From assembly GCA_029532415.1 (NCBI GenBank), contig JAQOTA010000056.1, forward strand, positions 146,716 through 210,715: a stretch of 64,000 bases of DNA, read 5' to 3'. Numbering within the stretch: position 1 is the stretch's first letter; each line of letters opens with the position of its first letter. The notes under the pieces were generated by a model. That model saw nothing but the letters and a program-made list of their open reading frames with translations, searched no databases and was not told the origin of the DNA. The translations under genes and the position numbers were made by a program. The stretch is from Marasmius tenuissimus. Taxonomy: Eukaryota > Basidiomycota > Agaricomycetes > Agaricales > Marasmiaceae. This document shows positions 11,779 to 42,790 of this stretch, one piece after another.

Positions 11779-11793
11779 GGTTATGGGCCCTGG
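11779..11793 (+). promoter_or_regulatory. copia primer binding site, copy A
   Basis: GGTTATGGGCCCTGG starts directly at the LTR end. It is complementary to the anticodon arm of initiator tRNA-Met (CCCAUAACC), as in Drosophila copia, rather than to a tRNA 3' end. Confidence 0.65.
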
Positions 11794-15428: not shown

Positions 15429-16141
15429 ATGCCAGTTCTGATTGTTGAGTTGTCTGTTTCAGCTGTGGCTGAGGGGATTTTGGCTTCCACCGATCCCAGT
15501 AACAGTCTGTTGATGAAGATGGTGATTGTTGGGATGCTTGTCGTTGTCATTGCAGTCGCAGCCAAAAAGTGGTTCTTCCCTTACACAATTGAAGACCTGA
15601 AGAGCTTGGTGACGAGTATTGAAGACTTGATTGAAGAAAAGTCAGCTCTCAAATGGAATTTACTCAGGGATTCTGCAGTTCAGTTTAAGCAGATGCTAGA
15701 AAAGTACGTGCTGAACGTAGTACACACCTTTATCCGAGATCACTGACATTTGTAACTCATTATTTGCTCTCATCTTCTCCGTTTGTCTATCAATGACCAT
15801 CCGGATGTTCTTACATCTGTCTGGGAACTGATATGCAGGCAGAATGGAGAAATGTGCCGGATTAGGATGGGAAGTATTGCTGAGCTAGATGGAATGAAAG
15901 TTCTCACTTGGATGGCTTTCCAATGTCGGCAGGTGAACCAAGTAAATGCTTGCCATGTGTCACTGTCGCAATTGGAGTACAGGTTATTGGTGTGTGAGCC
16001 TGCTCTGATGTGATGGTAAACAGTCCTTAGTCATATATGCAGGAAGAGATTGAGAAAAGGGAGCATACAGAGCATGCTTTGAGTGCAAGGGTATTGAGCT
16101 CCCATATTAGCAGGCCATGCCATCCGGTCCATCGCTGCTAG
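15429..16141 (+). CDS. KWF-P family small membrane protein (copy W1)
   Basis: I do not recognise this family. Three exons (15429-15703, 15839-15989, 16043-16141) with GT..AG introns of 135 and 53 bp give 174 residues. The protein starts MPVLIVELS and has one predicted transmembrane helix at about 31-45. It is followed at once by KKWFFPYTIEDL (46-57), then a charged, probably coiled region. Exon 2 carries a WMAFQCRQVNQVNA segment and exon 3 a short charged tail (EEIEKREHTEH). Exons 1 and 2 have exactly the same lengths and phases (275 and 151 nt) as in the copies at 31435 and 33868. This strongly supports the model and a real protein. The orientation in the membrane is unknown; no catalytic motif is visible. 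It sits in CG-poor sequence between transposon remnants. Confidence 0.72.
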
Positions 16142-17159
16142 CATTGGTGCCATCCATAACTGCCAACCACTGTTGTCCATTGTTGCGACCATTACACATT
16201 GAACAGCTAATTTTCTTTCATCATTTAGCCTCCTGTAACACTTGGTTGTACTGCTTGATTTGATCTGTTTGGATTGCTGTGTCCAAGGACCATGAAGAGC
16301 GAGCGAAGAAACAGGAAAGGAGACAAATCATATCCTGCACAATAGCCGCAGTATTTGTTCAATCTTGCTGTGACGAACCAAAGCTGCATGTACAGAGATG
16401 TGATGAATCTGTCATTGAGTAAGTTGTGGCCATCAAGGAGAAAGAAGACAAGACAACATGATACTGTTGCAAAGATATTAGCATGTATGTTGTTGAATCA
16501 ACCAGTATCCTAGGAGCAGCATCCAATACCTACTCTCTGCCCATTTGGATGGCTTAATGAGGATGAGCTGACAAAAAAAAGTCAGAATGAGATTGAAGAG
16601 TGGAGTCTAAAAACATACCGCATGCTTTAGCAATCAAATCCTCAAGCACGTGGATGCTATACAGATGTCTTGCAGGGAGGAAGCAAGAGCATGTGCATCA
16701 GCAAACCTCCAAATCATAGACCATTAATGGAGCAGACCTACATCTATGGGACCAGCCAGTGTCTGATACCATGATGTTCCCAACAGGTATTTGTCAAACA
16801 TTTCCCTACCATGATGTGCTCCCATGTACTGGAGACTACAGGATGCAGACTCAATGTACAACAAGTATGCATAATGTAGCAGAAAAACGTAATGGGTGAC
16901 TCCTGCACGTTTCTGGCACAATGAGCACGCAACAGGTACAGTGCGCGAATCATGTGTACATATCATTCAAATAAGGGAGCCCAAACCGAGATATGGCTTT
17001 GAGAGTAAAATTCACATAGCTGTAGTGCCTTCAGAAGATAAACAATCAACATGGATGTAGTATACAGCACGGCCGCAATAAACATTAGTGGGGAGATCAG
17101 CTACTAGCATGTAAGCCTTGTAGGTACCGAGACACCAGAATCATAGGGAAGTGAACGAT
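16142..17159. other. intergenic, no gene seen
   Basis: About 16250-16400 resembles the downstream flank of the KWF-P gene at 31435 (near 32290-32420), including 'ggattgctgtgtcca'. The rest has no supportable gene. Confidence 0.4.
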
Positions 17160-17491
17160 GGAAGTGATGAGCCGGCATGACACCTAGTGCAGAGGACTAC
17201 AACATGGCTACACTACTACTTACCAGAGAGGAGTTTAGAGAGGTAGAGGCAAGACGTAGAAGCTCAAGCACACTGTAGATTCAAGTAGAGAACTACAAGC
17301 TTATATACATGTGGAGACAATAGTAAATACCATATATGGACGACAATAGAAATTGTACATATGAGCATAGTGAACAATGAAGAATAGAACAATAGCAAAT
17401 GCATTGTCCTGCATAATACAATGGCGGGAAGTATGAACCGGGACTTCTGATATACCGGGATCTAATTATAGTCCACAGATTCAACAGGAAG
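17160..17491 (-). mobile_element. solo copia LTR with target duplication
   Basis: The LTR proper is 17165-17486 (322 bp), minus strand, TGTTGAATCT...GGCTCATCA. It is flanked by the 5-bp direct repeat GGAAG at 17160-17164 and 17487-17491. No internal element sequence is present, so it arose by LTR-LTR recombination of a copia element of the same family. Confidence 0.93.
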
Positions 17492-19744
17492 ATGGTGAGC
17501 ATGTAGAGTAAAAACACGGGAGGGTACAGTGACTAGCAGTCACAAAATTGGTACTATCAATTGAGTCTGGTTCAGTTCCAATAGTCAAAAAACATAAGTC
17601 AATCACTCACATGGGTGGAAGCTTGAGAGAGCAAAGGAAAACCTGCATCTCAGAGATGTCGTCAGTACAATCAGAAGCAGATGGCGGAGTCCAGGTGTAA
17701 TGGAATGACGCACACACACATTTCTTGTTTCCATGTTGCCAGTACTCAGCCAGCTTGCCAAACCTCGTCGTGATGTGAAGCATGCAACGTGAAGCATTCG
17801 ATCCAGGCAAAATAAGTGCTGTGAGTGTTCCTGATCCAGCGACATTCTTTCTCAATCCGAATTCATGTTCTGTGTAAGTAGTAAGATTGGGTCTAAAAAT
17901 AGGCGCATATAGCCACTTAGCTGAGATGATGGTCCAGTCCAAGGCCTCCTTGTTGGAGTTTGCAAGATTCTTGATGTCATCCAACCATCTATATCATCCT
18001 TCACCAATGTTCCTCAATGAGCTTCAAATGGTGTCAACAAACTTGTCGGGGCGTGCTTGTGAGCATAAGTCAACTTTGAGTCTTGACAGTCTCATTGGCA
18101 TTCTTGTGTGATTTTTATCACTGAGATTCTCTTCTTCACAGAGCTGAGAGGAGGGCCAGTGTTGGTGCTGAGGAAAAAGGAGAGCAAAACAATGGTGATG
18201 TTCAAAGGAAAGGATGTGTGTAAGCGCCGGACAGTTTGACACGTCGCCTTTATATGGAACCATAGGGTTAGGGTATTTATTGGCAGCACTTCAACGGCAC
18301 TTTCTCCAGGGGGGACCCCCACCTCAACTTACTTATTCTTGACCTTGAGCACTTGAGCTGCAACATCATTACTGTGGTCGTGGTCGCTGCCTGAGATACT
18401 GCCATCATTGTTCAATTATGTAAGGAAAATCCTGTAGATATCTTATAGTCAGGGCTCACCAGCGTCACCCAGGCCGTCTCCTAGTCTCCTTGCGGCCCAG
18501 TCTCTTGTTCCTCTTTGACTTTTTACTTTGACCACTATCGTGTAAACCACAATATGACATGTACACTATCTCTAGTTGAGTATCATACACTTCTATATCA
18601 CATTTTGAGGGCTCTTGTACACTGCCATTACAGCTTGCAACCCAGAGATGCATTCTTCTTACATTACACCAAGTCATGTACAGGGGAATGTAGTATGCTC
18701 ACTAGTTACATTGATTGGACTCCATGTACATTCACACAAAGTCATGTGCTCCAATGTAGATCACGATAACATGGATGTATGGTCATGTAAAGCCTCAACT
18801 GGGCTGTAAAGGCTATACATCAATGTTCTACAGTTTGGGAGTTTGCTGATGTGAGCGATGACTCTTGAGACATCTGTAGCGACTCAAAATAAGGACGAGT
18901 AGCTGGACGAAAGTCTGGGTGGGGAGGACGGTTCTGGTACTCAATTGGTCAAAGCAAAATCTGTCAAAGCGGCACTATTTGGCTACCCAGCTATTATGTA
19001 ATCATATATATTATTCTGCCGCTTTGACTGACAACATTTTGACAGTGATTGACTACCCGGGTCCCGCGCTCGGGGCTCACCAACCTCTCTATATCCTTGT
19101 CATCCCTCGACCTTCATCTGTAAAATGCTCTAGTGTCAATAGCAGGCATCGCTGTTTCACCTTGAGGCAAACCTCCGTTATTTGACTGCTCGAAGTACGT
19201 CTCCCGATCCTTCTTCTCGCTCTGACTTGATTTCTCAACAGCTTGTCATCGTCTGTCTGTGGACTGCTCAAGAGAGTAGAGGACAGGCAAAAGGTCTAGC
19301 CACAACTCGCCGTGCTTCATTGTATTGTTCAAACTCGTTGTGCTGAGTATCAAGACGGTTCAGCTCGCAGAATGTGCAGCCTTCTTACGGTATCTCTTCA
19401 AGCACATGGAGCACTGAGCACGCTGGGAAACCTTTTGGAATCATAAGCGTGTCCCTCGCTGGGTGTTTGTGTTCTCGTCTCTGGTCATGTAAAACAATGC
19501 TGACTGGAAGATTTTCTTCTGATAGGCGAAAAAGACATTGATATCCTGTCCTGATGGGCACCACATACACAACAATACAGCCCTAGCAAACGAATCGATG
19601 ACAACCACGCAACAGTTGCTGTAGCCTTGGATATAAGGGAACTGATGTCCTTCTTGGTGGGCATACCACGCGTGAGACCTTCAATGGGTATTTGGGACAT
19701 TCCATCAGACGTTAGCCTTGCAATTGTAGTATGTTGCTCCTACG
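17492..19744. other. mostly non-coding stretch, one possible exon
   Basis: Apart from the open frame at 17607-17984 (listed separately) I see no gene. The sequence is CG-poor. The part near 19580 ('cagccctagcaaac') resembles 33755, consistent with duplication of the flank of the KWF-P genes at 19745 and 33868. Confidence 0.35.
17607..17984 (-). CDS. hypothetical open frame, possible exon
   Basis: A 125-codon frame (MDDIKNLANSNKEALDW..., ending LPPM) has protein-like composition, with several W and Y residues, a RPNLTTYTEHEFGL segment and a cysteine-containing end. It matches no family I know. The frame may extend upstream through an exon near 18000-18260. Nothing nearby supports a role. It may be a gene fragment. 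Confidence 0.25.
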   Translation of the reverse strand: MDDIKNLANSNKEALDWTIISAKWLYAPIFRPNLTTYTEHEFGLRKNVAGSGTLTALILPGSNASRCMLHITTRFGKLAEYWQHGNKKCVCASFHYTWTPPSASDCTDDISEMQVFLCSLKLPPM

Positions 19745-20195
19745 TCAATTCACTTCCATCTGAAAGTTAATGGACACCATGAGCTGTCAGCTGGCTATCA
19801 TTCGGGCAAATCCACAAACATACTCACCGCCACTTCCCTCTTCAGCTTTATCACCAAGCCATAGCATTCCTTCACATCCCTCAACTCCTGCCAACGAAGA
19901 ACAATCCAAGTGACCAGATTACATTCATTTGGCCCTAACATTGAACGTTCCTCAATTTCCCTCATTTTTTGGTACTCTCTGCTCTGAAATTATCAGGATA
20001 ACTGCACTAGAAAACCGCAAAATCAACGCCTTGCCTGTTCAACCTTCCTCAGATTCTTGACTCCAAATCTTCCAACAAATTCCTCCCAATAGCCGTATTC
20101 TTTTTGATAGTCTTCCGAATGGAGTCGATTTGTTCCTTCAAGTCATCAAGTGTGTGTGGGTAGAACCATTTCTTGGCTCCAGCAACTGTTACAAG
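19745..20195 (-). pseudogene. KWF-P family gene, 3' part, split by copia B (copy W4)
   Basis: This is the downstream half of a KWF-P gene whose upstream half lies at 26520-26638. After the insertion point it reads VTVAGAKKWFYPHTLDDL, matching the membrane helix end and KWF-P motif of the other copies. Next comes the charged region (NTAIGRNLLEDLES), where an in-frame TGA follows RI. Exon 2 reads KMREIEE, then WIVLRWQELRDVKECY and ends at a GTGAGT donor (19828). Exon 3 reads MEVN and stops at 19745. The layout is closest to the copy at 33868-34462. The TGA and the transposon insertion make it a pseudogene. Confidence 0.82.
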
Positions 20196-20510
20196 TGTTG
20201 AATCCGTGGACTAAAATTAGATCCCGGTATATCCGAAGTCCCGGTTCATACTTCCTGCCATTGTATTATGCGGGACAATGCATGTGTTCCATTCTTCATT
20301 GTTCATTATGGTCATATGTACAATTTCTATTGTTCTCCCTATATGGTAATTCTATTGTATCTACATGTATATAAGCTCGTAGTTCTCTACTTGAATCTAC
20401 AGTGTACTTGAGCTTCTACGTCTTGCCTCTATCTCTCTAAACTCCTCTCTGTTAAGTAGTAGTGTAGCCATGTTGTAGTCCTCTGCGCTAGGCGTCATGC
20501 CGGCTCATCA
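20196..20510 (+). repeat. copia 5' LTR, copy B
   Basis: TGTTGAATCC...GGCTCATCA, 315 bp. It lacks a short stretch after 'gcat' (near 20282) that is present in the other LTRs. Confidence 0.94.
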
Positions 20511-20525
20511 GGTTATGGGCCCCGG
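20511..20525 (+). promoter_or_regulatory. copia primer binding site, copy B
   Basis: GGTTATGGGCCCCGG directly follows the LTR; it differs from copies A and C at one base. Confidence 0.65.
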
Positions 20526-20810
20526 TTAGCCCGACTACAATGACGAGCGCCTTAATGGCTGCTGTCAGCGACAAGCGCCCCTAGGCTGCTGTCATCGGCT
20601 AGCTAGGCTAGACCTGCATGTTGCCATCGACCTCTTAATTGAGTGTTCGATCTATGGCATTGATGTACGTCCTTCGACGACATTGGATCTCAAGGATCCA
20701 ATGCTCCTTGTTGAGCATAGCGCCTTGATGGCTGCTCCCTGTGTTGATTAGACGCATGCTGATGCTGTCTTTTCTAGATCCAACACCAAAACTCTCAACC
20801 TCTTACTACC

Positions 20811-23800
20811 ATGTTCGACGTTAAGAAATACTTCTCTGGTCGCTTCGACAGCACCAACTTCAAACAGACCTACTACAGCGAGATGGAAGCTGTGTGTAAG
20901 ACCCAAGGTCTTTACAGTCATCTCACTGGCCAAGAACCACGTCCCTCCATGCCCCTTGGCACTGTGACTAGCCCCGCAGGGGTTACTCCTGTTACTCGTG
21001 CTACCGTCCCTCCCGAGGAGCACGCTGCCTGGGTCAAGGAAAGTCTTGCTTGGGACAAGGAAGATCTCCAGCTCATGGGAATCATCCAGATCACCACCAC
21101 CAAGGAGGTCTTTGATCCGATCAAGGACATGAACGCCGAAAAAGCTTGGGAACAGCTGAACCTCACCTACGGCGAGCCCACTTTGTCTGCCATCTATGGC
21201 GACTTTGTTAAACTCGTCTCTTTCAGACTTGCCACCTCTCATCCCCAAGCCGGCATCACCAAGTTCAAGTCCTACATCGAACGACTCTCCGAGGTAGGAG
21301 TGGTTCTCCCTGAGTTGATCAAGTCCCTCTTGCTCATTGCCGCTATTCCTCCCGAATGGGACATTGCCTCATCTAAATCCCTCCATGACTATGTCAGGGA
21401 TTCCGAGGATGAAGAATGCATCACTGTTTCAAAAGTCCATGACGCTATCATGGTCGAGTACGAATGCCAGAACCCTCAGCTTGCCAACCGCCTCTCTGCG
21501 GTGAAGCGTGCTGGTAATCATGAACCATTGTTTGGTCAGCAGCAATGTCCGCAGCAGCAACGTCAGCAGCATGGGTATCAGCAGCAGACCAACACCCGTC
21601 CACCACAGCAGCAGCAGCAACACCCCTTTTCGAACCAGAACAAGGGTAAGAAGAAGAAGCAGCAGCAGTGTGGTACCCGCGGTGGTATCAACCAGCACCA
21701 GGGTCCCGGCAACGCCGGTGGTAACAGCGGTAACAATCGGTCTCATGGTCACTCCCATCTTGTGTCCTACACATCCGTCGTTGCTTCCCCTCCTCCTGTC
21801 CGTCCTTACTCCTCAATCACTGACCGCAGGGAACGTATTGCGTTGAACGCAGTCAACAACTCCTTGCGCGCTGAGATTGCCAGTGCCCCTTCTAGCCGTG
21901 CTAGAGGATCTCTGCCCCCAGCGCACTTCACTGGTCACTGGGACAAGTCTTGTGACAGCACTGTCACTCCTGCTGTCAAAAAGAATCCGGCTGCCATGCA
22001 GTCCTTCACCGGCTTCAAGCCATCCGAGTCAGTATTTGATGATGTACGTGAAGCACGTTCACTTGCTGACAGACTTGGTGTCCCTAATACGGCGCGGCAT
22101 CTCAAACCGTTCAAACAGATCGTCACGTCCGCCGCCAATCGTTCGCTCCAGGATCGTATCTCGAAGCCTGGTTCCTTGTCCAAGCAAGTTCTGGAGGACG
22201 ATTCGGAAGATGAAGGAGCCGGATGTCCTTCTTCTACTTCTTCTAAATGTGCTCGCAGCACTGATCCTGATGAAGATGTAGAAATGGACTGGGGATCTGA
22301 TGATGGTATGGACGATATGACTTCTCTATTCGGTAATGATGTTGACAACGACATTGCTGAAGCTGCAGGAGTAGAGGACGTCCCAGATGACGTCTCCCTC
22401 GGATCGTTCCACGATGACAGGCAAGTACCATACCTTGACCTGCTTTCCCAAGCTGATGCAAACCTACAGCGCTGCTCTCAACTAGTTGGTATCAGTAGTG
22501 CGCGCGGTAGTCGTAGTGATCTGGTATCACCTGTAAATTTTTGCAATGCTATTTCAACCCACTTTGTGGGATGTACTCGATGTAAGGGAGAGAAAAGTGT
22601 GAACAACACACAGGGTTGGCTCCTTGATTCTGGTGCCTCCTCTCATTTCACGAATGATTTGAATGATTTCGCTGAATATGAATCGCTTGATGGTCCTATC
22701 GTAAATACTGCGAATAAGGGCAACCCTATACAAATCAAGGGCAAAGGCACAGTCTTCATTAAGCATAATGTTGAAGGACATGACGGGAAACTTACTGAGC
22801 GCGTTTCGCGTCTCTATCCTGTCTATTACATACCACAATTGGATATACGCTTGCTATCCATGGGAGAGTTCCTTCAAGATGGTCTATCAATTTGTGGAAA
22901 CGCGAAGAAGTTAGCCTTCTACTCATCACAGCGACGACAGTCGCTTGTTTCCTACCCTCATATGCCTGGTCAAACCATTTATTGGGTACACTCGCGGAAA
23001 GCATCTGCTGAAGTTTTAATGGCCAAGTCAGTCGTTTACAACATCGACTACGATATTGAGCACAGACGCTTTGGGCATCCGTCGGATAAAGCCCTAAACA
23101 AAGCTCGGAAACATATGCAAGGTTTCCCACTTGACCTTAAGATGCCTACTAAGAAGACACCTTTGTGTCGTGGTTGTGCTGAAGGCAAGATGCATGAGAA
23201 ATCGTTCCCCAACTCTACAACTAGAGCTTCTAAACCATTTGAACACATACATTCGGATTTGAAGTCGTATCCGGTTGAATCATATCACCGGTACAAGTAC
23301 TACATCTCTTTTCTCGATGACTGCACGTCCTACGTTTGGACTTCCAAGCTCAAGACGAAGGACGAGGCAGTACCCGCTTTGAGGGACTTCCTTACTATGG
23401 TCAAGACACAATTCAATGCTGTTGTCAAGACCTGGATGTCCGATGAAGGGGGAGAGTACAAAGGAGATAAGTTCGATGCAGTACTGAAAGAGTATGGGAT
23501 CCAAAGGGATCAAAGCATACCGTATACACCACAACAGAATGGTCGTGCTGAATGATTTAACAGGACTATTCATGAGAAGGCTGAAGCTCTTCGCTTTGAA
23601 GCTTGTATGCCTCAGTCCTGGTGGGAGTTCTGCCATGTGCACGCCGTCCACCTCTACAATCGCACTCCTGTGCAACGTTTGAGCTGGCGAACTCCATTCG
23701 AAATGCTTTACAGCGAAGTACCTGATGTTTCACATCTCCGAGTTATGGGTTGTGCAGTCTACATCTTCATTCCTGAAGATCGTAGAGAGAATAAGCTCGC

Positions 23801-26156
23801 TCCTCGTAGTGAGTTAATGACTTTTATCGGCTACCAAGATGGGATGAAAGGCTTCCTGTTCATGCAAAGTAATAATTCCGTATTCACAAGTAGCACTGCA
23901 CTATTCGATGAGACACTATACAATAAGTGTTCTGATGCCAAAACTCGTGGCTTCACACCTGTTGGTAGTGAACCTTTTACTTTGGGTGAAAATCCCAACA
24001 TTCCTTCGGAAGATGAAGACTCTGATGACGACGGTTTTGATACTCCACTACCAGATCTCAGACGTCGCTCTGAACCTTCTAAGAGATCAGAACCTCAGGT
24101 TGACAAACCTGCAGGTGGCCCTGCGCCAGGGGATGTGCCACTCCCTCAATCTGGTCCTCTGACGCCTCCAGGCAAACCCGCTGTTCCCCTGCCTGCACCA
24201 GCAGCGGATGGTCCACGCCGGTCTTTGAGGCAGCGGAAGGGTACAATGCAACCTGGTAATATATTTGGGGAAAAGCGGAACCCAAATAAACCCTCAGACA
24301 TAATTCGCGACTTAGAGAATAAGAATACTTGGAGAAACGTCACTGGAGACAAAGAACCGTCGCATCCAGTTGATCGTCCTAGCTCTTCGCGATCTAGGAA
24401 AGGCAAAGGTGGTAAAAAAGGGATTCCTGGTCCACTTCTGCCTCTGCCTGCTCCAGAACCTAGTGGAAGCACTGAGTCACATGAGGAAGAAAGCATAGTC
24501 GAAAGACTGACCCAAGAAGGGGGAGTAGGATTCGTGATTTACCTGTTGAACAATGCCGTTCCAGTTCAAGATTCGCTTCCAACGTCCAATACTCCTGATT
24601 TCTCTAACATCAGAGAGTGGACACTCCGTGATATTCTAAAGTTGCCTGTCGAGCAACAGAAGGAATGGAAGAACACTTGCCACGAAGAACTTGAGGCACT
24701 TCATAAGCGCAAGGTCTTCGAACTCTGTGACTTGCCTAAAGGTCGCAAAGCCATCAGAAATAGATGGGTCTTCGACATTAAGTCGAATGGTCGCAAGAAA
24801 GCAAGACTTGTTGCCAAGGGTTTCTCTCAGGTCGAAGGTGTAGACTTTGATGAGATCTTCTCACCAGTTTTTCGTTATGAGACTGTTCATATGATGCTTG
24901 CTCTCACAGCTCTCAAAAACTGGTACATCACTTCTGTTGATGTTAAGAACGCTTTCCTTTATGGCGATCTTGTTGAGGAGATTTACATGGAACAACCTGA
25001 AGGCTTCAAAGTCAAGGGCCAAGAACGTAAGGTACTACGCCTGCGTCGTGCATTATATGGACTAAAGCAAGCTGCCCTTGAATGGTGGCAAACCCTCAGC
25101 TTGTCCATGGAAGTACTAGGCTTCAAACGCCTGACTTCTGATGCTGGACTCTTTATCTGCAAAGATCCGAAGAGTGGTGAAATTATGTATGCGATCATCT
25201 ATGTTGACGATGCACTTTTCATGGGTCCTAACAAAGCTTTTGTTGACAAGAAGAAAGCAGAGTTCATGGCTTGATGGGAATGCCGCAATATGGGCGATGC
25301 TAGCGAGTTTCTCCGCATGAGCATTCGTCGCGAAGGCAATAAGATCATGATTGACCAGAAGGATTATCTGAAGAAAGTCCTTGAACGTTTTGGGATGCAG
25401 AATGCAAAAGGTGCTCCTACGCCCTTACCTGCTGGCTATGTGCCAACTCCCAACGATGGTCCAGTCAATCCTGCCATTCGCTCCAGATTCCAGTCTGTGA
25501 TTGGGTCGCTTCTGTACATTATGCTGGGTACACATCCTGATATTGCCTATGCAGTTACGAAGCTTTCCCAGTTCTCTTCTAATCCAACGAAGGAACACCT
25601 TGATAAAGCTCTGTATATCTGCCACTATCTAGCTGGCACATCAGATTATTCACTCATCTACGATGGTGACTCTGATGGAGGTCTTCTTGCGTTCACAGAC
25701 GCGGATTGGGCTGCCGATCCTATCAAACGCTGTTTGATCACTGACTACTTCTTCAAGTTAGCAGGCGGCATCTTTTTGTGGCAATCACACACCCAGAAGA
25801 CTGTAGCTCTTTCTTCCACTGAGGCTGAGTATATGGCACTGTCGGATTGCAGTCGTCAAGCTTCCTGGATAAGATCGCTACTCTCTGAACTTGGAATCAA
25901 CTTGGGTCCTATTCCAATCTGCGGAGACAATCAGGGCTCTATCTTCATTGCATCTAATCCAGTTCAAGAACGCCAAACCAAGCACATCAATATTCGATAT
26001 GATTATATTTGATCGTGTGTTGAAGATGGTAAAGTCGAGTTGTTCTTTATTGAAGGAGTCTATAATCCCGCAGACATGTTTACGAAGAATCTCGGACATG
26101 AGAAGTTCTTACGGTTCAGAGATCACCTTGGACTTGAATTCTATTCGTCCACTTGA
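20811..26156 (+). pseudogene. gag-pol of copia copy B, three nonsense changes
   Basis: A single frame from MFDVKKYFSG to the TGA at 26154-26156 (1782 codons) matches copy C throughout, in the order gag, protease (DSGA), integrase (HRRFGH, CRGC, D-D-E), reverse transcriptase (YVDD) and RNase H. Three in-frame TGA codons break it, at 23553-23555 (inside QNGRAE/RFN of the integrase), 25272-25274 and 26010-26012. In copy C these codons are CGG, CGA and CGA. Many other differences from copy C are CG to TG or CA. The frame itself is not shifted. It cannot make a complete polyprotein. Confidence 0.93.
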
Positions 26157-26198
26157 TTCGCTCAGATGCGCTTTTCAGCTGCACTTAGCGAGGGGGTG

Positions 26199-26519
26199 TG
26201 TTGAATCTGTGGACTATAATTAGATCCCGGTATATCCGAAGTCCTGGTTCATACTTCCCGCCATTGTATTATGCGGGACAATGCATTCGCTATTGTTCCA
26301 TTCTTCATTGTTCATTATGGTCATATGTACAATTTCTATTGTTCTCCCTATATGGTAATTCTATTGTATCTACATGTATATAAGCTCATAGTTCTCTACT
26401 TGAATCTACAGTGTACTTGAGCTTCTACGTCTTGCCTCTATCTCTCTAAACTCCTCTCTGTTAAGTAGTAGTGTAGCCATGTTGTAGTCCTCTGCGCTAG
26501 GCGTCATGCCGGCTCATCA
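26199..26519 (+). repeat. copia 3' LTR, copy B
   Basis: TGTTGAATCT...GGCTCATCA, 321 bp, preceded by the purine tract GCGAGGGGGTG. Confidence 0.94.
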
Positions 26520-26638
26520 ACAAGTAGGATTGCACCTATGGCAAAAGCCTTCATCAATGTGCCTCCATCACTATTATCAGCGGCCAAAACCCCTTCCATC
26601 GTTGCTGAAATAGATCTTCCCCCCAAGATTACTGGCAT
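26520..26638 (-). pseudogene. KWF-P family gene, 5' part, split by copia B (copy W4)
   Basis: The minus strand starts MPVILGGRSISATMEGVLA at 26638, like MPVLIVELS and MPALLTETS of the other copies. It runs into the membrane helix (AFAIGAILLV) and stops at the copia B insertion. The frame continues at 20190 when one copy of the ACAAG duplication is removed. Confidence 0.85.
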
Positions 26639-28905: not shown

Positions 28906-28961
28906 GAATACACAGATGGTCGAGATGATAGTGCGTTCATGGCTCACTCTGGTAACACGAG

Positions 28962-31434: not shown

Positions 31435-32119
31435 ATGCCAGCGTTGACTGTCGAATCGTCCGTTTTGGAGGTAGCCGAAAAGGTTGAGGCGTCCAGTAAC
31501 TCAGGCGGAGGTCTCTTGTCCAAATTAGCATTAGTCGGAGTACTCGTCGTCGTTGCTGCACTAGCAGCAAAGAGATGGTTCTTCCCGTACACCATCGAGG
31601 ACTTAGAGGACTTGGTAAAGAGCATTGATAACCTGATAAAGGATAATATGAGGCGTGAGTGGAATCTGCTGGGAGGTTCCGCGAAGGGATTTAGATGTAG
31701 GCTTCAAAAGTGAGTGTGGAGGTGGTGCATACCTTGTCACCGAGACGACTGACTTTGGCCTCTTAAATCTCTGCAAAAACTCTTTGTACGCCCAAAAACG
31801 TTCATTCCAACGTACTCAATGGCCAACTTGGATCCAACGTAGACGGAACGAGGAGGTGCGCCATATCAAGATGAGGGGTGTCGCCGAGCCGGACAGGACG
31901 AGGATTTTGGCTTGGATGATCTCCCAATGGCATCAGCTGAAGCGCGTGAATGCTTCCCATGCGTTGCTGTCGCAACTGAAGTACGATTTGATGGTGCGTG
32001 GGCTTGTCCATACCTGATGGCAAAAAAAAAACCCATAAAAATGTTTGATACAGCTCGAGATCGAAGAAAAAGAGCGTAACTTCCATGCAAGAGCATTATC
32101 CTCGTCGACGAGAGTGTGA
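31435..32119 (+). CDS. KWF-P family small membrane protein (copy W2)
   Basis: Exons 31435-31709, 31843-31993 and 32054-32119 have GT..AG introns of 133 and 60 bp and encode 163 residues. The N-terminus (MPALTVESS) is followed by a hydrophobic helix (LALVGVLVVVAALAA), the motif KRWFFPYTIEDL and a charged helix (LVKSIDNLIKDNMRREW). Exon 2 contains RHIKMRGVAE and WMISQWHQLKRVNASHALL. Exon 3 is a charged tail (LEIEEKERNFHARAL). Exon 1 and exon 2 lengths equal those of the copies at 15429 and 33868. Function unknown; it is probably a single-pass membrane protein with a coiled-coil tail. The reading frame is intact. Compared with the copy at 15429 this one is CG-rich. Confidence 0.75.
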
Positions 32120-32476
32120 TGCCATCCAACTCGCTGCCGCTTGACATGTTATTGACCATCATCATCGACCACCACGCTCGTCGTCCATCACCAAGACCCT
32201 CTGATTCTCCACTGCTATCCCCAGCTCTGTTTCTGCTATCATCTGGCCTCCTATATCACTTGCTCGTGTTGCCTCGTATTGCTCGAATTTGATTCATCTC
32301 GATTGCTGTGTCCAGCTACCCAGGAAGAGGGAACGAGGAGACCACGAGGGAGCCGGATCAAGTCCAGCACGATGACTGCGACACCGGTCCGTCTTTCCCT
32401 GAATATGCTACATCTGCACCGGTCCCGATGTAGCGAGCCTGGATGACTGTCGGGCATGGTAAGTTAACATCGTGAT

Positions 32477-32662
32477 TTGTCGAGGGAGAAGAGGAAAGAT
32501 GATCGTACGATTGACGACGCGAATGTCAGCGCGAACGTTGCTGAATCAGGTGGTGACTTGGGCAGAGATATCTTCGAAATCTTCAGCCGTTTTGAGCAGT
32601 TTGAAGAGGATCAGCTAGCGGAGGAGAGTCAGAGGAGACAGAAGGAGGAATCGAAGTCATAG
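32477..32662 (+). CDS. hypothetical small charged protein
   Basis: A 61-codon frame (MSREKRKDDRT..., FEIFSRFEQFEEDQLAEESQ) is highly charged and could form a helix. It follows the KWF-P gene at 31435-32119 by ~360 bp. No relative is recognised. It may be chance or a separate exon. Confidence 0.2.
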   Translation: MSREKRKDDRTIDDANVSANVAESGGDLGRDIFEIFSRFEQFEEDQLAEESQRRQKEESKS

Positions 32663-33035
32663 CGCATGCTCAAGAGAATGAATTTGCGAGCATTGAAATC
32701 TGAGAAGGAGTAGACTGGCAGCTGATTGGCGAGAGGTTAATGGCAATCGCATCTGAGGGCCGTTTGTAGCGATACGAGTCGAAGGATGAGAATGAGGACA
32801 AGCTGGAGACAAACAACAAAGGTGAGGGAGGAGTATTTGGGGTCCTTGAGTTGCGGCGGGATCATCGTGGATTCATTTGTTCTACCCGTGGCTATGCCTG
32901 GCGGAAACGGTGGCAATGCACGGCTTGTCACGTCCTAAATACGGAAAGTCTCTCCTGGGCCTTAAACTGGTTACTTCCTCCAATTCTAATTGGCACTGGT
33001 GTGTGCTCACACAGCGGACCCAAAGGTGATCAAAC

Positions 33036-33250
33036 GGGCGAGACAGACCCACACCGGCGCCACTGCATCAGAGCCACATCGGTGACACTGTATTGGACCC
33101 ACACCTAGATCAACTTGAAGGACCCACACACAGACCGATTTGACGGACCCACACCCCAGAGCGACTTGACGGACCCACACCGGCGCCACTGCATCGGACC
33201 CACACGGACTTTGCGGACCCACACCGGCGGGACAGGAGCAGACCCCGGAC
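33036..33250. repeat. GACCCACACC minisatellite
   Basis: Irregular tandem units share the core GGACCCACACC, often followed by GGCGCCACTGCATC or by a TTGACGGACC spacer. At least seven cores are visible. Open frames on either strand here are low-complexity artefacts. Confidence 0.75.
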
Positions 33251-33867: not shown

Positions 33868-34462
33868 TCAGGCTGGGAATTGCAGTAAGTCATGCTTGTG
33901 TTTCACTTCCATCTGAAAACAAAAGGTTGCCATGGACCATTAGCCGACGTTCTTTTAGTGTCTCAAGAATTCAAGCTCATACCAAGACATGCTTCTTCAG
34001 GTCCAGCACCGAGCAATAACACGTCTTCACCTCCCTCATCTCCCGCCAACGAAACCGGGTCCAAACGAGCAAATTCCATCTATGCGGCTCGGCCGTCGCC
34101 CATTCCCGGATTTCACCCATCTTTCGGTATTCCCTACACGGAATCATCAACAAAGTTGCAGTAGAAGCCCTCAGTTCATCAACATACCCATCCAGCCGTT
34201 CTCGGAATCTCCACCCCGAATCTCCCAACAAATCCCGCTCAAGAGTTGTATTGCGTTCGATTAAGTCCTCAACGTAGTTCGTTTGGCGTTCCAAGTCCTC
34301 CATTGTATATGGATAGAACCATTTCGTGACAATGACCCCCGTAAAGAGGAAAATTACACCCATGACGAAAACCTTGGTCAAGATCCCTCCTTTACTGCTG
34401 TCTGCTGCCAAAATGCCCTCCGCCGTTGTGGAAACGGAAGTTTCTGTCAATAAAGCTGGCAT
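33868..34462 (-). CDS. KWF-P family small membrane protein (copy W3)
   Basis: Exons 34462-34188, 34133-33983 and 33912-33868 give 156 residues. Introns are 54 and 70 bp. The 54-bp intron is a multiple of three with no stop, so the gene can be misread as one exon. The start MPALLTETS aligns with the other copies; an in-frame Met at 34561 would add a basic extension and cannot be excluded. A membrane helix (VFVMGVIFLFTGVIV) is followed by TKWFYPYTMEDL, a charged helix with many E and R, then exon 2 with KMGEIREWATAEPH and WTRFRWREMREVKTCY. The short tail is MEVKHKHDLLQF. Exon 1 and exon 2 lengths (275 and 151) equal those of copies at 15429 and 31435. Function unknown. Confidence 0.72.
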
Positions 34463-35206
34463 TTGTCGGTCGTATTCCGGGTTACTAGTTTCTCGTTCGA
34501 TCTTCGCTGTCCGTCGTTTTGCCTTTCTGTTCCCCGCTAGTCTATTTAGTAAGAGCGACACTTTTGTAGGCGGTCACGTACCGTTCTGTGTAGATAGCAA
34601 TGGTTCTTGGAGAATACAAGATGGGTTTTGATTTTACTTCTTGCTAGATGATTCCGACCTTGGGTCCGTTCACCCTCTGGCCAAAGCTGTGAGAGCAAGG
34701 TGGAGTTTGTGCGAACGATGTCGGCGTGACCTTGGTGGGCGCTCAATGTTGCAACATCGAATTTGTTAGATGCTCGCCGATGAAAGCTGGCGCTTGGGTC
34801 TGGAGGCCTGACTCCCGAGGTTTTGTTGCAGGTTCGCGTACTTGTCTTCAACCTGACCTTGACAAAGAGTGAACGTCAGTGATAACAAACATTAATGATA
34901 TGCGGACGACCCCGGCACGTGTGTTGCTGCTATAGACAACATTTCTCGAATGCTCTACAAGGGGTTCATGAATCTGAAGGTGTTAGATAGGCTCAAAAGC
35001 AGAGCAGGGCGTAGCCAGGAAGATTTAATGACATGACCATGAGGAGATGGGAACTTGGCCGGCAATACACGTGGTTTTGGCACCGTGGTGCAGTAGTCAA
35101 GCTCAGCTTGAACTCACACCACCGCCATCACGCTTTGAAGAGACAGTAAGTGTCATGATCTGGCTTTGCAAACTATGCTCATGGTCTCTTAGAGCTCACC
35201 GCATCC
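34463..35206. other. promoter region between KWF-P and F-box genes
   Basis: The stretch separates two divergent genes. The last 150 bases resemble the sequence before the F-box pseudogene at 9338 and hold a likely 5' leader intron (gtaagtgtcatgatctgg...cttag, about 35148-35190). Confidence 0.45.
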
Positions 35207-36943
35207 ATGGATCCAAACGTATTAGCAGAATTACTCCGAACATCCATGGATCGTGTGCTGTTTATCGAGAACTACCACGAGCAAGGATCGCATCACGATT
35301 CAGAGACCATTCTCCAGCATCTTCCAGCAATCCAGAGCGACATCGCACACTTGAACTCTGAGATCACTCGGCTCAAATCAGCCTTAACCTCGTTGGAGAA
35401 CTATCGAGAACGACTGAACCGTTGCGTTGCGATCGGAAAGTCGTTAATCCCGCCGCCCGTGCATAGATTGCCCAGTGAACTCTTGTCCCACATTTTCAAA
35501 GTCATTTGTGATGATGGACCTATCAGCGAACTTTCCTCTAGTAACCTCCGGTATACACCTCCTCCACCGCCCGTGCGAATGTCCGCGGTGTGTGCTTATT
35601 GGAGAGCAATCGCACTTTCTACGTCGAACTTGTGGTCGGCGGTGAAATTTGCTTTGGAGCTCTCACCAAACACAAATGTAGAACGGCTACACAGGATGAC
35701 CGAAAGGTTTATTACCCGCGCCCGCACCTCTCCCTTGACCATCGCCTTTGAAATACCCGAAGGCCAGAGGGCTTTGGATCCTGGAGATCCATTCACAGTA
35801 GTCGTCAACCATGCAGTGGAGGTATTATGCGAGCGCTCATTTCAATGGCTCGATGTCGAATTAAATGTTCCGTCCAATTTCTTCTTGCTCCCCGCCATTC
35901 GAGGTATCAGAGGCAATCTCCCGAATCTTCGAAACATCTCCATATGCGATCTACAAATCCCTTTGGCCTCCACATACATACTTTTTGATGGTGGATGTCC
36001 GGCTCTTCGAGCTATGACAATCCACATGCTTGGAGAGCAAGAAGACATAATATTCCAAACTATTCCATGGCAGCAGGTTGAGGACCTAAAGCTTGGCGAT
36101 TTCCGCCCAAACTTGGCACGTTCTCCTCTGTACCTTGTGTCTCTTTGTCCAAAGCTCATATCCCTGAACCTTGATTACAACTTGGAGGTCCATCAACCGA
36201 GCGTCGATCACTTTACCGGCCATGTAACCTCCAATATGGAGTCCCTTACCCTCATGCTGAAATCCGACTACAACGAGGCCCAGGACACATGGGTAGAATT
36301 TTTTGACCACATCACCCTCCCTCGACTATCCTCTCTAACTCTCCAAGGCACCTATTCTACTCACCAGTTCGAGGATATTTCCTCCATCTTACAGTGTGTT
36401 ACTCGATCGGCATGCCCAATCACATCTCTGACCCTCAGGTTCAACTTACTCTCGATGACAGAGAATCACCGTCTTCTTTCCCTCCTGCCGAGTTTAACTA
36501 CCCTTGCTCTCTACGAAGACTGGACCGCAACGTATTCTAAACTAAAAGTGAAACTAGACCGCGTGAAAGATTTCTCTCGCCTACTATACGTCGACTCCGG
36601 TTCTCCGGCTTCGACTACCCAACTGGAGACGCCACACCTATTACCCCGACTCCACCAAGTCTCATTCGATCTTCCTAATTTTCACGATCCCAAAACTCTC
36701 CTTTGCCCTCTCTTTGATTCCGACCAAGGTGTCGACGGGAACTTGTACAGAACGGTAGCCTCTAGATGGCTTCCTGACCGGCGAGAGGCAGTGGTTCCAA
36801 GAGGTGGCGTCGATAGCCTACAGTCTGTGACAATTATGTTCGCAAATTCATGGCGGCGCCGTCCCAATCTTCCGGATTTGGCGAAACTGAGGAAGCTTGG
36901 TGAGGAGGGATTGGAGGTCTTTATCCGCGACAAAGATTCTTAG
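35207..36943 (+). CDS. F-box protein (copy F2, intact)
   Basis: A single open frame of 578 codons starts at MDPNVLAELL. Residues ~34-75 form a heptad-like helix (LNSEITRLKSALTSLENY). The F-box-like domain follows at about 84-150, with VHRLPSELLSHIFKVI, then CAYWRAIALSTSNLWSAV. The remainder is leucine-rich with repeated hydrophobic strands, such as LPNLRNISI, LCPKLISLNL, LSSLTLQGTY and LPSLTTLALY, resembling degenerate leucine-rich repeats used for substrate binding. In this family the F-box contacts Skp1 in SCF ubiquitin ligases and the C-terminal part selects the target; the target here is unknown. Large F-box families of this style are common in Agaricomycetes. Three broken copies lie in the window at 9338, 27325 and 60100. 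A leader intron just before the ATG is likely. Confidence 0.85.
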   Translation: MDPNVLAELLRTSMDRVLFIENYHEQGSHHDSETILQHLPAIQSDIAHLNSEITRLKSALTSLENYRERLNRCVAIGKSLIPPPVHRLPSELLSHIFKVICDDGPISELSSSNLRYTPPPPPVRMSAVCAYWRAIALSTSNLWSAVKFALELSPNTNVERLHRMTERFITRARTSPLTIAFEIPEGQRALDPGDPFTVVVNHAVEVLCERSFQWLDVELNVPSNFFLLPAIRGIRGNLPNLRNISICDLQIPLASTYILFDGGCPALRAMTIHMLGEQEDIIFQTIPWQQVEDLKLGDFRPNLARSPLYLVSLCPKLISLNLDYNLEVHQPSVDHFTGHVTSNMESLTLMLKSDYNEAQDTWVEFFDHITLPRLSSLTLQGTYSTHQFEDISSILQCVTRSACPITSLTLRFNLLSMTENHRLLSLLPSLTTLALYEDWTATYSKLKVKLDRVKDFSRLLYVDSGSPASTTQLETPHLLPRLHQVSFDLPNFHDPKTLLCPLFDSDQGVDGNLYRTVASRWLPDRREAVVPRGGVDSLQSVTIMFANSWRRRPNLPDLAKLRKLGEEGLEVFIRDKDS

Positions 36944-37531: not shown

Positions 37532-38239
37532 TTAATCCAACTGCAACATGTTCGCCCCCGCAGTCCTTTTATCGATGCTGAACGGTTTTGAGAACGAATA
37601 AACAGTGGCTGGATCTCCCTTCGCGTCGTTAAACACCGTCAGCACGACATACGAAAGAGCCCCAAAGAAGTCGTTCTCCAACTCGATCTTCCCCATCCTC
37701 TCCGTCTTGGCATAGGTCCCCAAACTGAGATCAACCACAGACTTGTGATTTCCGACCTTCTCGCGACCGACACTCTCTACTTTGAACTGGGGATGCACAG
37801 AAATGTCCATCTGACCCGTATGCATGATATTAACGCAGAGAAACTCCTTCGATTCGGCGTAGGATCGTAATGGGAGGAGTGCAGAGGATATGGCACAGTT
37901 CTTGAGGAACGCGTTGTAGTACCCCCACCCAGGCCCAGACGTCTTCGAGGGTCGTTGCAATACCGGTATTTTCGGCGTAGTATTCGCGCTTCGATTTGAA
38001 CTCTTTACAAGCAGAGATGCGGGCGGGCCAGTCATTTTTCCGACGTTCTTTGCTCTGAGGAGAAGATATAATAGATCAGAACAAAGAAACACGTCTTTGA
38101 GAGCGTCGAGCAAGGAGGCTTACGCAGTAGATCACTCGGCAGCAGCCACCATACCGCGGGAGCTTTTCGTGGTGAGTAAGTTGACGGAGTTGGAGGCATC
38201 AATTACACTTTTAGTGAGTGTGGGCGACAAGGCCGTCAT
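37532..38239 (-). pseudogene. unrecognised gene with a one-base frameshift
   Basis: I do not recognise this protein. The C-terminal part is well coded: YYNAFLKNCAISSALLPLR, then a strand-rich part (FKVESVGREKVGNHKS, LSLGTYAKTERMGKIEL) and the end KRTAGANMLQLD. Upstream the better frame is one base out: FKSKREYYAENTGIATTL, then EDVWAWVG. The two frames meet at a run of five C on the plus strand (37922-37926). With four C they would join as WAWVG-YYNAF. A likely first exon starts at 38239 (MTALSPTLTKSVIDASNS), followed by an intron ending near 38058, though the first junction does not fit cleanly. No signal peptide is evident. This is a recent pseudogene or a sequence error. No function is proposed. 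Confidence 0.5.
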
Positions 38240-38908
38240 AAAACATGGGAAAGTCGGATTGGACGACGTTGAGTCTGTTGATGCGTAGAATGGAGCTATC
38301 TTCTTTCATGATTGCAATTTATCGCAAGCCGGTGGGCGGTTCAGGTGATCGTTCTGCTTACCATTCTGTAGGCATCCAGCAGTGAGTGAGTTCCCAGAAA
38401 ACAATTAAGAGGTTGAAGAGCTTACTTCGAGTAGGATGTGAGAGGAGACGTAGAGGCGCACCAGTGACTAAGAAGGGAACAAAGAGAACGTACCACAGTA
38501 GCACGTTTGTACCTGAGCGACTCACCGCGGGACCATTTGCCATTTCAAGGCACGGTGCCGCTTGCCGCGTTGAGGGCAAGTTCTTTCGCGCTTGCCTCCC
38601 GACCTCAGAGCAGGTTACACTCTGAATACTGATCTCGCCCACAGGATTTTCTCAGTATGATGGCGGGCACAAGCTTTCGCTCCAGAAACCGCTCACTAGC
38701 TCGGTTTCCATCTGAATACGGACATAGACGCAAGTAAGAGACAGCATAACCAATCTATCCAGAGATGATCAATACTAACGGAGGTAAACTCAAAGATGGC
38801 TGAGCCTGGTAGACCCCTACGTGCCAGCAATATTTTCACCGCGGGGGTATATATTGAGAAAATCGTCGACAAGCTGAACCAAAAGTGAAAAGATCGCCCC
38901 TAGATATG
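38240..38908. other. intergenic, no gene seen
   Basis: Between two minus-strand genes. Overlapping short frames at 38358-38642 are on both strands and look like chance. Confidence 0.45.
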
Positions 38909-40465
38909 TCAAACAGAACGTGTTTGCGGGAACGTATACTCTAAAGATACGTCGGTTTCGTGAAGGTGGTGGGAGTTCACGCTGGGCTCCCACGTTACTC
39001 GCCGTATGTGAAGAATTGCACGGCTGGTGAGAATCGAGTGCATTACGCGCTCGAAACTATAAGCACTGATGTCAGACGTTGATCGGTAAAGTAGATTATC
39101 AATGATTCTGTTACGCACGCAGTGAGGAGGTGAACCAAGTCGGGCTAATTGAGTCAAGAGAGAAATTTAGCGAAACGCACCGAAGTTCTGTTGTCTGGGC
39201 TTACAGGAAGAAGGACGATTACCACCACGTTGATCAACGATATCACTAAATGTTGGATGTCAGTAGCGAGGTCCGCCCTCGAACTAACTGGAGATACACA
39301 CGGAAGACGAAGCCATAGTAGATAAGACCTGTAGAGAGCATGCCATCAGATCCCCGAACGGCGCACAGCAAAGTAGCTTACCATCTTCGTAGATGGCTTT
39401 CATGAGTTTGGAACTCCCGCCCATTCGAACTGCAAAATAGATTAGCCATGGAGGCATCATGACTGTCTTGGATCTATATTTGGCCTACAGTGTGAGATTC
39501 CCGGAATCAGAATCATGATCAACATTGCTGCAACCAGCCTTCAGCATCGACCAGGTCCTTGAGCGACGGGATCGCTTACCAGTATCGTAGATCATCAATA
39601 GGGTCCAGCACAGGTAAAGTATATGGTTTCCGACAGAAATAAAACACCCTCGAAACTCTGGTATTGGTAGTTTTTCAACTAGTAAAGAGTCAAATATGAG
39701 GGTCGTATGCTGAAGATGAGACTTACATCGAGTTGCGTCTAAGAATCGTTGGACCACAACGAAACACGGAGCCCATGTTCCTAAGGAAAAGACAAAAAGT
39801 CCTATTCCTATTATAACGCTTTTTCTCCACATTGCCCAAATACGGAGCGTCAGGAGCACTGCGTTGATTAGGGAGGTGAGCTGTAACATCCAGAGGCTAA
39901 AAAAATCGAGCGTTATACACCTTCAGAAAGCACAAGGCCTGTGATAAAAGACCCTGAAGTAAAGGTTTCCCGGCGCACAGGTCAGAAACTCGCATGAATG
40001 AAGAGGGGTCGGATCACCTACATCCAATGATACGATAAGCAATATCGCAACGTTGCGGACTCAGGTTCTCCGCGAAATGCACTGGATAAGGAAATAACAG
40101 TAAGCACTGCGCAGTGGATCAGGCGAGATCAATGAGCGTACGATACAGTAGCACCCCTGTGTCGAAGAAGGGGAGATATCGTTGTATCACGTAGAGAACC
40201 GTGGCGAGCGACCATTTCTTCCTCCAGATACACCGTACCTCTGGCCCGAGGTTGAGAGCGACATCGTAAACGAGTAAAGCCGAGGTGGCCACTGCAGGGA
40301 GGGATTGAAGCTGAGTTGCAATGTTGACATGCACTGGGTCGAACCAACCGTTTAGATACTAAGTCAAGGTCAGTGAACCATCGTATTTGAAGTTGTGATA
40401 CCCAAACTGACCGAAACTGTCTTCTGGTGCTCAAGCGCGATGGTGGCGGCAGAGACGTCAGCCAT
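38909..40465 (-). CDS. DUF6533-type membrane protein (copy D5)
   Basis: This DUF6533 gene starts MADVSAATIALEHQK at 40465. Exons then give YLNV and ATSALLVYDVALNL, and EVRCIWRKKWSLATV, then QRYLPFFDTG, a clear DUF6533 signature. Next come HFAENLSPQRCDIAYR, a short exon GSFITGLVLSE, an exon with LRIWAMWRKSVIIGIGLFVF and GTWAPCFVVVQRFLDATRC, then CWTLLMIYDT. The last exon reads FERVMHSILTSRAILHIRR and stops at 38909. Hydrophobic segments fit seven helices. Introns are about 50-65 bp. No internal stop was seen after splicing, so it is probably intact. Function unknown. Confidence 0.72.
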
Positions 40466-42259
40466 TGGGCTCCAAAACTTTGAGGTGATACCAAGGTAGG
40501 AGGACCTTTAAGTGGGCAGAACGGACAGCGATACCTTCTCAACTGCATTCGGCAGTGGAAACGATGATCGAACACTTGTAATAATCCACACGAACCTCAA
40601 CACCGACCGATCTGGGCATCATCACGAGGGAGGGGATATCAGGTGTCTTGAATGAGCCCTAATGTGCAAATCAGTGACCGCGCAAAATTTGGCCCCAGAT
40701 GATCATGATTCGCGCGTAAGCAGGAATCTGGTGGGGTTGCAAAGCGGGTGTTTCTAGACAGTCCTTGATCAAGGAACAGCGAGTCAGTGGCAAGTAATGT
40801 TTGTTGGCCAAGGCGGAGACCGCGAAAGTACAGAGTGGCCTCTTGAGCATTCGAACAGCCACTCACGACGCTCGGAGTCAAGACCTCTTTGCCCCAACTC
40901 GAGCATTGATGCTAATCATTGGTAAGTAACGGATCGTATATGGAGCATCGTCCCGCGGCTATCAAGAGTCGAGCAGAGGACGCATTTGAGCCTGGAGTTT
41001 TGGGTGAGCTGATTAGCACACTGTCTTGTACCTCAAGACGTTGAAACGAGATGAACGGGATCGGGCCGGAGTTGGAGTGTTGTCAACGGAGGCTGTTGCG
41101 ATGATAAAGAAGTTCTTGTACTTACAGGATGAGTGCTGAGGGATCAAAGTGATGATGTCGATCACAGATATCGTCAGATGAGATTGAAACGCTAGGTCTA
41201 CACCAAGCTCGATGTTAATAGCCCAGACCAGAAATGGTACTTTCAGCTGGAACGATACCGACAGCAAAAAGCCCTAGTGGGTAGATGTTGGTGGCATTTC
41301 TGTGTCGATGACATTGGAAAATCGATATGACGTTGAGCAGGTCCAATTCGCAGTATCTGGCACTGAGACTTTCATCCAGAGTAATATCTTCTCGATTTCC
41401 ATGCCCGGTCTCGTTGATGACGCTGAAGTACCGTTGCGGTTTGTCCTGTCGCGTCGAAGAACCGTTAATATTGTTGTACTAGGCACGTAAACGTTATGTC
41501 GTGCGAAGTCCGAGCTGGCAAGCTGAGAGATGTATTAGATACAAGCTGAAGACCCACTGAAACAAGTTTGTTTCCCTTTTTGTTGCCGAAAGGAGTGTTC
41601 CAACATTGGCTTTACCGCTCGGAATCTATGCATAATGCTGTACCCAACGAATTAGAAAAAGCGTACGCAACCAAGACGCTTGATATCGAGCCTGTCTCAG
41701 GATTTTGGGGGAGGCTTCGAGAGTGGAGGCGAGTCTTTAACGTTCAATGAGTGCGGCTGGCTATGGTGGTCGCGGATAGACCATTGATCGGCGCCTGTCA
41801 GTCACGGTGTTAAGCCCACAATCCCACAATCCCACACGTGCCCCCGAGGGCCCTATACATGTGTTAAAGTTGGGAGCTCAGTCAACTCAACTCACACTCT
41901 TTCAAGAGAGAGAGCCTGCTCTCGCTGTCTCACGAAGGCATGACAATACGAGGGAGAAAAAGAGATGATGTATTCAATTCGACTTGCGTCGGTCGACACG
42001 GCGTCAACATTTGATATCCGAACGAGGTTCGTGACAAACTGCATACGCTCGAAGGCCAACATACCTGTCGAAGTCGAAAACCAAACTACACCGGCCCACA
42101 TACACGTATAAAGCCTCGACACGAACTCTTTAAATACCATTCGGAAGGTCTCCTAGCCAGGAAGGACCAAGGCACCATGTGCATGGCTAACAACCGTGAA
42201 TGGAATTCGATGGTAGAATCCATTGCACAAGTTTCCAACTCGAGGCGTAACCGTCGAGT
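40466..42259. other. intergenic, no firm gene
   Basis: Open frames at 41013-41267 and 41274-41486 (minus) are partly hydrophobic, and might be decayed exons of a membrane protein, but no family signature is visible. About 42160-42259 resembles the upstream flank of the KWF-P gene at 15429. Confidence 0.35.
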
Positions 42260-42790
42260 AAGGCCAGTTTTGATCATTGAATCGTCCGCTTCCGCAGCTA
42301 CTTGAGGGGTTTTTAGCCTCCAACGATACCAGCGGTCGTGGACCCCAGACCGTAATAGTCGTCGTCGGTATCCTGGTGTCTCTGGAGTAGTACTGGCCAT
42401 AGAACAGGGTCTTCCTTCAACGATTAAGGATCCAGAGGGCATCGCAAAGAGAATTGACGACTTGTTTGAGGAGGATTCGACCTCGGGACGCGATTTGCTA
42501 ACGGAACTCAAACAGATGGTAGACAAGTATATGGCGGGTGATGCGCACCTTTGACCCCAGAGCGACTGACGTCTGTCTCTCGAATTTCCTAAATTCTCAT
42601 ATGCACGCCAACGGCCATTTGAACATTCTTGAGATCCGGCTACCCAACATAGACGGGACGGCAAGTGCGCCAGATCAGAATGAGAGATATCGATAAGCCA
42701 AATGTAACGAGAATTCTCAATGTGATAGTCTTCTGATGGCAAAGTGGATGCCTACTGTCGCAGTTGAAGGACGAATGTGATTGCTTGAGC
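42260..42790 (+). pseudogene. KWF-P family pseudogene (copy W5)
   Basis: It aligns with the KWF-P genes at 15429 and 31435, including upstream flank. The start codon position is AGG (42260-42262) where the others have ATG. The first codons read PVLIIESSASAAT and then hit TGA at 42303-42305. The membrane segment (VIVVVGILVSLE) ends in another stop and the KWF-P motif is lost. Later parts still match (IDDLFEEDSTSGRDLLTEL). It is dead. A 218-codon open frame on the opposite strand is a shadow of it. Confidence 0.75.

Follow-up and report, generated by a model that had tools for sequence, protein, structure and literature searches.

Convergently paired genes of an unrecognised family of small membrane proteins in Marasmius tenuissimus

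The window, that is, the whole stretch of 64,000 nucleotides analysed here (C22:146716-210715 of its own genome, where C22 is contig JAQOTA010000056.1 of Marasmius tenuissimus and C44 is the counterpart contig), carries genes of a family of small membrane proteins, KWF-P. Copies A, C and D are open, and copies B and E are broken (Table 1). The family is constrained, comprises two subfamilies, C-type and D-type, arranged as convergent pairs, and is limited to Marasmius as far as it was searched. A preliminary description of this stretch had claimed an unrecognised family under selection at the protein level, and our analysis supports this core claim and adds to it a third exon, a division into two subfamilies and the convergent arrangement of the pairs. 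The five copies that it listed stand as three open and two broken ones, but the pieces at 19745 and 26638 belong to one gene, B, split by a long terminal repeat (LTR) element, and the third exon had been overlooked.

Table 1. Positions of KWF-P copies and neighbouring features in the window
Feature	Position	Strand	Basis or remark
Copy A (C-type), whole span	15429-16141	+	locus L023
Copy A exon 1, 275 nt	15429..15703	+	gene model
Copy A exon 2, 151 nt	15839..15989	+	gene model
Copy A exon 3, 99 nt including stop	16043..16141	+	model and alignment; end unlike other C-type copies
Copy B (D-type), one broken gene split by LTR element	19745..26638	-	premature in-frame stop in 3' piece
Copy C (C-type), whole span	31435-32119	+	locus L001
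Copy C exon 1, 275 nt	31435..31709	+	gene model
Copy C exon 2, 151 nt	31843..31993	+	gene model
Copy C exon 3, 66 nt including stop	32054..32119	+	same end in public model P0001; alignment
C-type gene 3' part and downstream DNA	31994..32732	+	67-73% over 352-739 nt with 8 of 9 other pairs; C44 allele uncounted
Copy D (D-type), whole span	34462-33868	-	locus L032
Copy D exon 1, 275 nt	34188..34462	-	gene model
Copy D exon 2, 151 nt	33983..34133	-	gene model
Copy D exon 3, 45 nt including stop	33868..33912	-	gene model and alignment
Copy E, decayed C-type remnant	42260..42790	+	no ATG, frame breaks; motif unreadable
LTR element inside B	20196..26519	+	LTRs 96% identical; target duplication ACAAG at 20191-20195 and 26520-26524
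F-box-like gene, divergent neighbour of D	35159..36940	+	PF12937, 25.0 bits, cut-off 24.3
DUF6533 exon of neighbour gene	40122..40358	-	PF20151, 47.9 bits

The lengths of 275 and 151 nt described for exons 1 and 2 were found again in A, C and D, with GT..AG intron borders and identical phase, and the products are 174, 163 and 156 amino acids long, respectively. In an alignment judged by eye, all 10 D-type rows keep the stop position in exon 3, as do 8 of the 11 C-type rows, the exceptions being A, L010 and L021. This exon is used by the public protein models P0001, P0019 and P0020, while P0006, P0007, P0011, P0018 and P0022 stop inside or before intron 2 and lack it; additionally, P0004, P0005, P0009, P0010, P0024, P0026, P0027 and P0029 read into intron 1. 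Because the public models disagree on exon 3, the modelled C-terminus of the family is provisional. An acceptor-like TGTCCA(A/G) is often kept in the alignable DNA 3' of C-type exon 3 (window 31994-32732) and may perhaps mark an intron of the 3' untranslated region. Scans of the window with Rfam at gathering scores and with a tRNA search gave no match.

Exon-level searches of the genome identified about 48 copies of exon 1, of which 21 are C-type and 27 D-type or D-like, on C22, C44, C13 and C10 (types assigned by score; B counted once, E excluded). Gene models were fitted at 41 of these 48 loci with exon lengths left free, although the fit, which aligns to 142-residue references, favours equal exon lengths. 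Open models were obtained at 33 loci, and 26 of them consist of exactly 275 + 151 nt; considered separately, exon 1 measures 275 nt in 28 models and exon 2 measures 151 nt in 30. Among the other seven, L015, L047 and L048 look sound, with first exons of 272, 272 and 284 nt, and L009, L016, L017 and L042 look truncated or mis-fitted. The motif [KR]-W-F-[FY]-P-[YH]-T-[IML]-[ED]-D-L, attributed earlier to all five copies, is present in A, B, C and D but unreadable in E, and it occurs in exact form in 12 of the 33 open models genome-wide. Nevertheless, its W, its P and the D preceding its last residue are kept in all 33, as is a core of about 142 residues with W-[FYLW]-[FY]-P-x-x-x-x-D-[LS]. Hardly any gaps interrupt the core alignment of 20 rows; P0014 and P0025 show small internal gaps or insertions, and the N termini of seven rows are shortened.

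Fixed exon lengths beside freely varying introns had been offered as a sign of selection. This argument fails, since the length of intron 1 is itself fixed within each subfamily, the 14 standard C-type models having 130-135 nt and the 12 standard D-type models 54-64 nt. Over aligned columns, the median pairwise identity of intron 1 was 0.73 in the C-type and 0.71 in the D-type (shuffled, 0.52 and 0.55), and third codon positions, at 0.66 and 0.69, did not exceed it. We dropped the intron argument because intron 1 is at least as conserved as third codon positions. In the C-type, where intron 1 (window 15704-15838 and 31710-31842) exceeds the third positions in a count that ignores gaps, this intron is perhaps constrained.

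Selection on the protein itself was borne out by the ratio of nonsynonymous to synonymous divergence (dN/dS) among the standard-exon copies (14 C-type and 12 D-type, with pairs scored at dS <1.5). The median was 0.26 over 79 of 91 C-type pairs and 0.31 over 65 of 66 D-type pairs, these pairs being non-independent and their averages masking single sites, and every scored pair lay below 1. The MG codon model gave 0.258 and 0.316, respectively. The unscored pairs were 12 of C-type (dS >=1.5 or saturated) and the D-type allelic pair L031/L032. Neutral decay does not fit these values. The comparison proposed earlier succeeds with the genome-wide copies but not with A, C and D alone, where dS is saturated and the ratio uninformative.

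Contig C44 bears close counterparts of the C22 copies in reversed order; for example, the copies at 178150 on C22 and 330636 on C44 are 100% and 99% identical to copy C in exon 1. Two loci of RPB1-like genes are doubled at equal or similar score (C23/C41 and C19/C59), and others are single. Two haplotypes are thus probably represented over part of the assembly, and the copy numbers given here should not be read as haploid counts. For copy A, C44 holds no exon 1 counterpart above 59% identity, and the pair of A and B (window 15429-26638) may be present in one haplotype only.

Three protein searches yielded 29 distinct public relatives: 16 from Marasmius sp. AFHP31, eight from M. tenuissimus, one from M. 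fiardii PR-910 and four open reading frames on contigs of 1.0-3.2 kb. All 25 named ones are from Marasmius, a narrower range so far than the Agaricomycetes guessed previously. No other genus appeared among the 29, in searches that required shared 5-residue words, scored up to 7,997 candidates and relied on gene models, which often omit small genes. The M. tenuissimus protein P0026 matches a C44 locus over its whole length (166/166), and P0011, P0020 and P0029 (C22) and P0016, P0022 and P0027 (C44) share exact runs of 59-127 residues with array loci; for P0001 and P0006 of AFHP31, the longest such runs are 20 and 19 residues. In a midpoint-rooted tree of 20 proteins, A, C, P0001 and P0002 form a C-type clade (100/99), opposite which D, P0006 and the remaining proteins fall. 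Copy C groups with P0001 of AFHP31 (97/93), apart from A, and this topology therefore suggests that the duplication separating A from C is older than the split between the species.

The family was also unrecognised by domain searches, as had been claimed. Pfam gave no significant match for A, C and D (best 12.6 bits, cut-off 27) or for 35 alignment rows, which included six exons from the window (best E 0.0078, 16.7 bits, cut-off 27.7; next family E 0.029 or weaker), and no Pfam domain is listed for any of the 29 relatives. A sequence profile search of the PDB returned only CENP-N, at E 1.6. The available portions of full-text articles on Marasmius, DUF6533 and the thread blight genome (including PMC10949477 and PMC11053350) contain no account of the family; in part of this literature, M. 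tenuissimus is named as causing thread blight of cacao.

As stated in the preliminary description, A, C and D each show a single hydrophobic helix followed by [KR]WF[FY]P. One hydrophobic stretch per protein is found across the genome, with a median net charge of -3 before it (32 models) and a median of two K/R around the W. For P0012, AlphaFold2 predicted a membrane helix at residues 26-49 followed by helices at 54-73, 82-105 and 113-162, with a predicted local distance difference test score (pLDDT) of 80 and a predicted template modelling score (pTM) of 0.58; this deeper model superseded a first one with pLDDT 68 and pTM 0.33. Foldseek found no match at E <=0.001 in the PDB or among viral models. 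No HeLo or MLKL domain was named among the best 50 rows per fold search, which excludes nothing.

Considering gene order, 18 of the 21 C-type genes have a D-type partner, always convergent, with an exon 1 to exon 1 gap of 2.4-6.5 kb, inside the 7 kb limit by which we define a paired unit. These 18 pairs count presumed alleles on C22 and C44 separately and are not 18 independent events. In the window, A is paired with B and C with D. The exon 2 to exon 2 spacer measures 1,950-2,503 nt (11 pairs with overlapping loci); when the C-D spacer was used as query, similarity to most other pairs was confined to the two ends, leaving the middle unaligned, and no conserved extra gene was found in the spacer, the end similarity being spread over several frames. 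Short repeated CGGACCCACACC-like units lie in the middle of this spacer (window 33042-33204). In a Mantel comparison of distances within the subfamilies, 16 of the 18 pairs gave r 0.73, a value reached in 0 of 5000 permutations, and r was 0.53 for 11 pairs with one allele per locus (86 of 5000). The correlated distances indicate that the pairs were largely copied as units, as gene order also supports. In Marasmius sp. AFHP31, C/D homologues carry adjacent locus tags twice (P0001/P0006 and P0008/P0015; adjacency only, orientation unseen). Upstream, sequence similarity between the 5' flanks is clear for A and E (score 44, shuffled maximum 32), weak for A/C and C/E (5 and 4 of 200 shuffles equally high) and not seen in the other seven copy pairs. 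Nine D-type or D-like copies are unpaired (C10:1069159-1295782; C44:521277, 581159, 586231 and 863794); the L047 model on C10 resembles, by eye, P0025 of AFHP31, and these lone copies may represent an older form of the family.

The F-box and DUF6533 genes noted before as neighbours were both confirmed, the former adjoining D. Of the 21 C-type genes, 11 have a DUF6533 exon in divergent orientation no more than 6 kb away, and in 7 of the 18 pairs the D-type gene has a divergent F-box-like gene within 3 kb; these tallies rest on 17 F-box genes and 32 DUF6533 exons, comprising the C22 rows and those in or near the C44 array. The LTR element in B is, judging from its open frames, presumably of the Ty1/copia type. 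A second full-length copy at 49693-56013, whose own two LTRs do not differ over 321 nt, is 94.9% identical to it. The element also occurs as an incomplete and more diverged copy at 11457-14374 and as LTR-only copies at 17165-17486 and 62944-63264. The window also holds a hydrophobin exon (3331-3957, minus strand; PF01185, 51.7 bits) and a weak MYND-finger match (57591-58130, minus strand; 17.2 bits, below the cut-off of 22.7).

Based on these results, we tentatively prefer a reading in which KWF-P proteins are paired single-pass proteins with the N terminus outside, putatively associating as an anchored protein-binding module. Each protein has a short acidic tail followed by a single membrane helix, a hinge (K/R plus W-F-[FY]-P-Y) and then about 110 residues of helical domain, which the positive-inside rule would place in the cytosol. 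Encoded by genes that face each other tail to tail across about 2 kb and were copied as units, the C-type and D-type products would most likely associate in the membrane and act as a small module, with copies diverging in their partner; judged by position, the seven-helix DUF6533 proteins encoded nearby are candidate partners.

Several observations weigh against this reading. No D-type gene lies within 8 kb of 3 of the 21 C-type genes, and 9 of the 27 D-type or D-like copies stand alone. Eight of the 41 modelled loci are not open (seven with one stop, one without any model). The structural model matches generic helical bundles only, and the allelic pair L031/L032, absent from the dN/dS count, has dN 0.006 and dS 0. 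The Mantel correlation is weaker within contigs, at r 0.61 for C22 (6 pairs, 201 of 5000) and r 0.55 for C44 and C13 (10 pairs, 102 of 5000). The weakest link is the step from gene pairing to interaction, because co-duplication alone can yield pairing and accounts for it without any interaction.

It is almost as likely that the pairing is a mere footprint of tandem duplication, with independent membrane proteins hitch-hiking in a repeat-rich region. Spacer length and gene ends were copied together in the 11 pairs, the window contains LTR elements and broken copies, and each type also occurs without the other nearby. Nevertheless, pairs are kept at 18 of the 21 C-type loci despite a dS of at least 0.2 between presumably non-allelic loci, and the adjacent C/D tags recur in a second species, AFHP31. 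An unlikely alternative, by analogy with RAMP and MRAP, proteins that partner animal receptors, is that KWF-P proteins are accessory single-pass partners of the neighbouring DUF6533 proteins. The divergent DUF6533 exons near 11 C-type genes would agree with such a role, as would the predicted seven helices and outside N terminus of the Coprinopsis DUF6533 protein SNB1, which, according to PMC10949477, is needed for fruiting-body patterning. However, the list used shows no such neighbour for 10 of the 21 C-type genes, and a DUF6533 cluster on C7 (11 rows) has no listed family copy. Slightly less probable still is a haplotype-variable modular recognition array, in which DUF6533 genes, C/D pairs and F-box genes were duplicated side by side and each pair would tune or read its own receptor as a specific membrane complex. 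We consider it similarly improbable that the pairs serve self/non-self recognition or act as killer and protector, one product harming and the other protecting, with haplotypes differing in the pairs carried. Functionless, decaying remnants are scarcely credible: B and E are broken and 8 of 41 loci lack an open model, but 33 are open, dN/dS is about 0.3 and relatives occur in other Marasmius proteomes.

Lineage-restricted, tandemly expanded families are common in mushrooms and mostly unexplained. The KWF-P family is a testable one, with strong purifying selection, an exact exon architecture and a duplication unit that is a facing pair of related proteins; if the partners bind, each pair would be a natural specificity experiment. 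A domain model would name 25 hypothetical Marasmius proteins, as well as copies overlooked by annotation.

Among known systems, the closest are the Marasmius relatives themselves, including PQX77_001391/001392 of Marasmius sp. AFHP31 and PM082_013804 and others of M. tenuissimus, which belong to the same family and show the same C/D division; P0001 is 81% identical to copy C and P0006 74% to copy D. They are listed as hypothetical proteins only, with no name for family, domain or pairing, and several of their models enter an intron. The DUF6533 proteins (PF20151), represented by SNB1, are likewise basidiomycete membrane proteins that lie in the same arrays and have an N terminus predicted outside, but they have seven predicted helices instead of one, and PF20151 was absent from the Pfam matches of A, C and D (E up to 10) and of the 35 rows (E up to 1), with no profile match between the two. 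The FAT domain of focal adhesion kinase and designed three-helix coiled coils share the antiparallel helical bundle predicted here; with Foldseek E values of 0.39 at best and 9-12% identity in the top rows, the likeness points to a common arrangement, not to kinship.

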